This document shows, piece after piece, positions 8,087-34,675 of a stretch of 55,925 nt of DNA (the first letter of the stretch is position 1; each line of letters begins with the position of its first letter). The translations under genes and the position numbers were made by a program. The stretch comes from Candidatus Nitrosopumilus salarius BD31 (GTDB taxonomy: Archaea; Thermoproteota; Nitrososphaeria; Nitrososphaerales; Nitrosopumilaceae): the NCBI RefSeq assembly GCF_000242875.2, contig NZ_AEXL02000138.1:1-55925 (forward strand), read 5' to 3'. The notes beneath the pieces are model-generated. The model was not told where the DNA came from. It did no database searches and saw nothing but the letters and a program-made list of their open reading frames with translations.

Positions 8087-8145
8087 CGTAGATATTCATA
8101 ATTCGTACACTCTAAACCTAATACTGTTTACTTTGATGTAATATT

Positions 8146-8220
8146 ATGAAATTGTATGATTTTGATATCATCGAGTGTTATGATGATGACGATTATGACT
8201 TTGATGATGACTCAGATTAG
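8146..8220 (+). CDS. Putative Asp-rich micro-protein, 24 residues
   Basis: The frame reads MKLYDFDIIECYDDDDYDFD and then DDSD. It is extremely acidic and ends 28 bp before the convergent aldo/keto reductase stop. Composition bias alone could produce it, so the call is weak. Confidence 0.25.
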   Translation: MKLYDFDIIECYDDDDYDFDDDSD

Positions 8221-27795: not shown

Positions 27796-28304
27796 TTATT
27801 CTATTTTGATTTCTTTTCCTTTCTTCTTTGAACTTTTTTCATCCACTTTCTTTAATTCCTCTTGAAGAAATTTTCTATATTTTGCAGTCTCTTCATCAGT
27901 CATGTTTGATATGTTTGAGCTAAGAATTGATCCCATGCTGGATATTTTCTCTAGTAAATCCAACGCAACAAACCTACCCACATTTCCTAATCTGAAAAGA
28001 ACATCTAACTGCTTTTTTACGATGTCATTGACCTTGTCAACATCTTGTGCCGTTTCAACTCCTTTTTTTGTCAGTTGGTATCTACCATCTTTTGTCTCTT
28101 CGATTAATTTTTCATCTAACAATCTTCCTAACAATGGATAAATCAACCCTGGAGATGGTTTCCATATTCCGTTGCTCTGCTCTGATGCATAACTAATAAT
28201 TTCTGTACCTGTATGGGGTTTTTTTGTAATAGTTCTAAAATGAAATATCGTGAAAATCCTCTTGGAACTGAACTTCCTACTCTTTGAAACCACTCCGATA
28301 TCAT
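27796..28304 (-). CDS. PadR-family regulator with an N-terminal frameshift
   Basis: The C-terminal frame holds a PadR winged helix (HTGTEIISYASEQS, SPGLIYPLLGRLLDEKLIEE, GRYQLTKKG) and a dimerisation helix. This frame continues upstream only into non-family sequence from a TTG at 28335. The proper PadR N-terminus is in another frame from the ATG at 28304 (MISEWFQRVGSSVPRGFSRY, then FILELLQKN). The frames join at 28215-28226, where the minus strand reads C-A7-C4. A -1 slip on the heptamer A AAA AAC, or one extra A, gives LLQK[NK]PHTGTEII, a normal PadR. It could be programmed frameshifting, phase variation, a recent mutation or a sequence error. It is divergent from sdhA and upstream of the MFS and lyase genes. 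Confidence 0.8.
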
Positions 28305-28332
28305 CACTAGCGATATCACTAGCGATATATTT
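28302..28332 (-). promoter_or_regulatory. PadR promoter with tandem 12-bp repeat
   Basis: Two exact head-to-tail copies of ATATCGCTAGTG (28328-28317 and 28316-28305) end at the ATG of padR. The first copy plus the next four bases form a near-perfect dyad, ATATCGCTAGTGATAT. The AAATATAT box (28332-28325) lies about 25 bp before the ATG and overlaps the first copy. This looks like an autoregulatory operator. Confidence 0.55.
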
Positions 28333-28398
28333 CAATATTTCGGATCATGCCTGACAATTACTACATATTTAACTCACCTACAGCAAGTTTGACTAAAA

Positions 28399-33889: not shown

Positions 33890-34675
33890 ATGTCTGAAGA
33901 GAAAAAAGAATCTGAAATAGAAGCAATATCTGCAGAAGATTCATACTCTGAAAAAACATCTGTTGAAGAAACTCCTAAAGTTGACCCAAAAGCAGCTGAA
34001 GAAGCTACTTCAAAAACTGAGGATGCTCTAAAGGCAGCAAAAGAAGCTGAGGCTGCAGCAAAAGCAGCTGAAGAAGCAAAATCATCTGCGGAAGCAATTG
34101 CAAAGGCAGAAGCCGCAGCAAAAGCAGCTGAATCTGCAGAAGCCGCAGTTAAAGAAGCTCTTGCAAAAGCAGAAGCCGCAAGAGCTGAGGCTGAAGCTGC
34201 AGCTGAAGAAGAATACAAAGCAATTGCAGCTGAAGTAAAAGCAGATGCTGCTAAGAAACCTGATTTTACATTTAAGAGGCAAGGGGAAGAAATTTTCCGA
34301 CGAGAAATGGGTGAGCCAGAATTTTTCTTAGATAAAAAAGATAGATTTCCACGACCTATACTTACACAAGATCAACAAGAATCTCTAACCAGAGAAGCTG
34401 AGATTCCACGTGATCAAACTCCACAGTATATTCCTGAACATGTTCTTAGTCCTGAATTTGCAGGTGTTTCTAATTATGAACGAGGTGTTGATTCCTTTTT
34501 AGAAGAAACTAGACAAAAACTTGCAAAACTAAAAAATGATCCAAATACAACTGAAAAAGAAATTAAGGATGTTGAAAATGAAATTACTTATTTGGAATCA
34601 TTACATGAAAATTTCTTTATAGGAATGAATGTTTTTAGAACAGCTAAAGGTGGAAGAGACAAAATTAAAGCATAA
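33890..34675 (+). CDS. Ala/Glu/Lys-rich coiled-coil protein
   Basis: This 261-residue protein has two parts. Residues about 35-125 are a low-complexity helix of repeated A-A-K-A-A-E-E-A type units, a probable single long coiled coil or helix. Residues about 128-261 are ordinary sequence (FTFKRQGEEIFRREMGEPEF, a Pro-rich stretch, then two helices). The second codon of the open frame, ATG at 33890, is the better start; a TTG precedes it. It ends 11 bp before hemA and is probably co-transcribed. No function is recognised. Confidence 0.7.
   Translation: MSEEKKESEIEAISAEDSYSEKTSVEETPKVDPKAAEEATSKTEDALKAAKEAEAAAKAAEEAKSSAEAIAKAEAAAKAAESAEAAVKEALAKAEAARAEAEAAAEEEYKAIAAEVKADAAKKPDFTFKRQGEEIFRREMGEPEFFLDKKDRFPRPILTQDQQESLTREAEIPRDQTPQYIPEHVLSPEFAGVSNYERGVDSFLEETRQKLAKLKNDPNTTEKEIKDVENEITYLESLHENFFIGMNVFRTAKGGRDKIKA

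Follow-up and report, generated by a model that had tools for sequence, protein, structure and literature searches.

A padR gene split at a seven-A run in a draft Nitrosopumilus genome: a probable homopolymer error beneath a conserved operator-like sequence

The padR locus and its upstream region

The window (the whole 55,925-nucleotide stretch of Candidatus Nitrosopumilus salarius BD31 DNA analysed here) carries on its minus strand a padR gene that lies in two reading frames (Table 1). Frame 0 opens with the N-terminus MISEWFQRVGSSVPRGFSRYFILELLQKN, and past the residues LLQKN the resemblance to the PadR family shifts one frame back, where it continues as PHTGTEII...EIKIE, and frame 0 itself loses its family likeness. 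The split is exactly where the original prediction had placed it, to the coordinate and the letter, and the codons at the junction in the starting frame are indeed CAA AAA AAC CCC (CAA AAA AAC at 28226-28218), which set an A-AAA-AAC heptamer in-frame. The heptamer is not an unusual string here, as AAAAAAC occurs 28 times in the window when both strands are counted. The A run is one A short of an intact frame; with one A added the codons become CAA AAA AAA CCC (QKKP), and a -1 slip likewise gives a match to the family, as predicted. The joined protein scores 44.2 bits against the Pfam PadR profile (PF03551; curated cut-off 27). The downstream piece alone reaches 38.4 bits, the upstream piece alone gives no match to this profile, and the intact orthologue of the complete relative G007 scores 45.9 bits. 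By this winged-helix match over the cut-off the joined protein belongs with the PadR-like transcriptional regulators (PF03551), from which the gene in the window differs solely in the missing base that interrupts it. Searched with the same profile, the window's assembly gave a single match above the cut-off, which leaves no candidate paralogue to supply PadR function. A TTG at 28335 was rejected as the start of a single -1-frame protein: it sits within the promoter and operator region, and relatives have no counterpart of the first ~38 residues it would encode. A second break suspected at 34235 was also set aside, being a low-complexity region only.

Table 1. Features of the padR locus and one-base frame breaks in other genes and genomes.
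Feature	Location	Strand	Remarks
padR N-terminal part	28216..28304	-	ATG 28304, frame 0; relatives share start
C-A7-C4 junction	28215..28226	-	C (28226), A7 (28225-28219), C4 (28218-28215); heptamer A-AAA-AAC at 28224-28218
Remainder of padR, -1 frame	27796..28218	-	PHTGTEII... to stop at 27796
Frame-0 tail beyond junction	28143..28215	-	not conserved; stop at 28143
Tandem palindromic operator-like sequence, ATCGCTAGTGAT-ATCGCTAGTGAT	28303..28326	-	overlaps padR start codon; family-conserved
TATA-like sequence, TTGAAATATA	28326..28335	-	about 26 bases upstream of ATG 28304; position conserved
G082 padR, A8 to A7 loss	L142 around 720 (G082:C1 about 872020)	+	same site as in the window
Phosphoglycerate dehydrogenase-like gene	L167 about 13779		-1; window's assembly
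Response regulator	L184 about 8135-8220		two +1 changes, extra bases within about 30 bases; window's assembly
Thaumarchaeosortase	L189 about 19776		-1; window's assembly

The operator-like tandem upstream consists of two 12-base palindromes, 2 x ATCACTAGTGAT (ATCGCTAGTGAT occurring twice in the window), and is seen at about 80 loci of the padR family; many of these carry it complete, and in some the second copy is degenerate. The palindrome pair has a single occurrence, at padR, in nine of the ten genomes tested. The spacing of the TATA-like sequence suggests that padR mRNA is probably leaderless and begins at the ATG itself, in which case the putative operator would cover the transcript start, an arrangement that points to autorepression. 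From this layout it seems likely that PadR autoregulates its own leaderless transcript through the putative tandem operator. One relative in which padR is also broken (G082) carries a second near-perfect copy of the operator sequence (L262 5086-5109; G082:C1:1563085-1563108), about 8 bases upstream of the start codon (ATG) of a nucleotidyltransferase-domain gene (PF01909).

padR in related genomes

padR was found in 90 of the 95 genomes of the genus and is a single open frame in all 90 except the window's own (G000) and G082; a TGA flagged in the padR of G071 is its normal stop. Family members among the matches listed in an order-wide search were likewise intact. The nearest relatives (L001, L003 and L004), at 84-87% DNA identity to the window's padR, encode QKKP (QKKPH) with CAA AAG AAA followed by CCT or CCA, and, with a G interrupting the run, they lack both the heptamer and a long stretch of As. 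Given that the window with one A restored would read the same QKKP, the slippery heptamer appears to be a by-product of the missing base and not an element that has been kept. More widely, the run at this site varies from A4 to A8 and its position is also not conserved; many relatives interrupt it with a G, and several intact relatives have A8 there.

The window's padR differs from that of L001 with a dN of 0.035 and a dS of 0.75 (dN/dS 0.046), similar to the values between intact relatives (0.036-0.058). By this measure of about 0.05, strong purifying selection is still acting on padR, and with selection unrelaxed, a break that is real could only have arisen very recently.

The second broken padR lies in a single-contig genome. 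G082 reads TTA AAA AAA CCC where its relative L075 has TTA AAA AAA ACC CCA, and the shortened run forms a slippery A-AAA-AAA at which a -1 slip restores the frame. The two losses are independent, as the genomes are not sisters and each is closest to different intact genomes. In the neighbourhood of padR, 3 of about 620 gene-genome pairs (~0.5%) have a genuine frame break, a rate that predicts ~0.3 broken padR genes by chance across 90 genomes; padR itself contains only some three runs of comparable length. The further case at the same site is therefore a mildly unusual coincidence and falls short of strong support for a biological cause. Another gene of G082 has lost a single base as well (L158 about 7550, GTGT to GTG).

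Frame breaks elsewhere in the assembly

The assembly from which the window comes, that of a marine archaeon that oxidises ammonia, is a draft of 171 contigs (1.57 Mb, 87% complete). When 200 of its genes (134.6 kb) were compared with G007, one-base breaks were found in four, padR included, every one in or beside A/T runs of 5-7 (Table 1). For background, two or three internal breaks were accepted in 609 kb of 80 other loci (L110 twice and perhaps L084), a count in which calling a break genuine is partly a matter of judgement; the remaining reported breaks were overextended starts. The rate in the window's assembly is about 6 to 9 times this background, with a Poisson probability of 0.001-0.005 for four or more breaks and of 0.01-0.03 for the three other genes without padR, and a stricter conditional binomial test gives a weaker result (P 0.01-0.08). 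Split detection with tblastn reported many false breaks at gene starts and missed the known padR break of G082, so the break counts are lower bounds. Counts of in-frame stops were discarded as a sign of decay, as the hits came mainly from antisense ORFs among the queries. The two breaks in L110 (about 1130 and 9605, one of them among A7-A8 runs) fall on a relative's contig, Dive96_bin2.279, that is probably of lower base quality.

Cause of the split and its meaning

There is good reason to think that the split is a homopolymer error in the draft, and we hold this to be probable, the technical cause being read from sequence comparison. padR lacks one base, its relatives are intact, and other run-associated indels occur in the same draft. 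An error of this kind should come with too many one-base indels at other runs of the assembly, and such an excess was found; both gains and losses occur at unrelated runs, a pattern that fits a technical fault. Homopolymer indel errors in draft assemblies have the same appearance, with one-base deficits or excesses at A/T runs in several genes per assembly. A literature search on such faults in the genus gave nothing of use. Against an error stands the A8 to A7 loss shared by G082, and a fresh real deletion would look identical. If the A run had instead truly lost a base in recent times, padR would be inactivated in the strain or in part of the population, with operator and coding sequence not yet decayed. 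Runs of seven or eight As, prone to replication slippage, are frequent at this site in relatives, the single-contig G082 has few other breaks, and the low dN/dS is compatible with a very recent event. Such a deletion, the runner-up among the readings, is nonetheless unlikely, given that three more genes of the draft show the same fault, that one of them, phosphoglycerate dehydrogenase-like, could be lost only at a cost, and that the whole genus conserves padR.

Full-length PadR would be made if ribosomes were programmed to shift to the -1 frame at A-AAA-AAC, or if polymerase slipped there. A programmed slippery heptamer was the headline of the four interpretations in the original prediction, and it is the part that found no support, whereas base-call error or recent mutation did. 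The heptamer has the correct X-XXY-YYZ form in the starting frame, the product of a -1 slip is a perfect family match, and the site in G082 is slippery in the same sense. There is also an archaeal precedent in the fucA1 alpha-L-fucosidase gene of Saccharolobus (Sulfolobus) solfataricus, for which -1 programmed frameshifting has been proven experimentally, with an A-AAA-AAT heptamer, a putative stem-loop and rare codons (PMC8211752). padR in the window resembles it in having an in-frame A-AAA-AAY heptamer, a second part in the -1 frame and uninterrupted relatives. As some relatives of fucA1 are likewise uninterrupted (PMC8211752), intact relatives alone do not exclude recoding. However, in contrast to fucA1, with its putative stem-loop and experimental proof, no stem-loop was found in the window's padR: no stimulatory RNA structure is predicted after the heptamer (z = -0.09; 91 of 200 shuffles fold as well), and in a fold model without pseudoknots there is none 5-9 bases past it, the first predicted stem lying >20 bases downstream. 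The slippery site and two-frame layout are not conserved, relatives being single-frame with one independent break (G082); the nearest relatives, in frame and without the heptamer because a G breaks the run, are the observation that the original prediction had named as refuting, and they count against recoding, which intact orthologues do not need, and the draft's other breaks fall at unrelated runs. Frameshifting is thus very improbable.

A phase-variable homopolymer that switches PadR between on and off states, also proposed originally, might draw on the fact that this site has twice gone independently from A8 to A7 and on the A8 in several intact relatives, but a tract of seven or eight As is short for a contingency locus, neither its length nor its position is conserved, and with ~0.3 broken genes expected by chance and about three comparable runs the coincidence is mild; it is hardly credible. 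It is similarly very doubtful that this stretch of As, which falls in the region for the DNA-binding domain of a self-regulating PadR, is a place where indels recur in Nitrosopumilus (the window and G082) and are tolerated since ribosome or polymerase slippage on A7 still yields some full-length regulator.

Were the split programmed, padR would join a very short list of archaeal cellular genes known to be recoded. Under the preferred reading, a homopolymer error, the locus would hold an ordinary conserved PadR-family repressor gene of a Nitrosopumilus species, split in appearance only: the draft has seven As where eight are needed, a length error in reads or assembly would be the cause, and the organism's padR would in reality run through about 170 codons in one frame. 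The main lesson is one of caution: in A+T-rich drafts a heptamer that looks slippery is often a homopolymer fault, and a simple check is to ask whether unrelated genes of that assembly are damaged in the same way; anyone working with this draft should be prepared for such faults. The conserved operator-like sequence before padR is a more solid lead.
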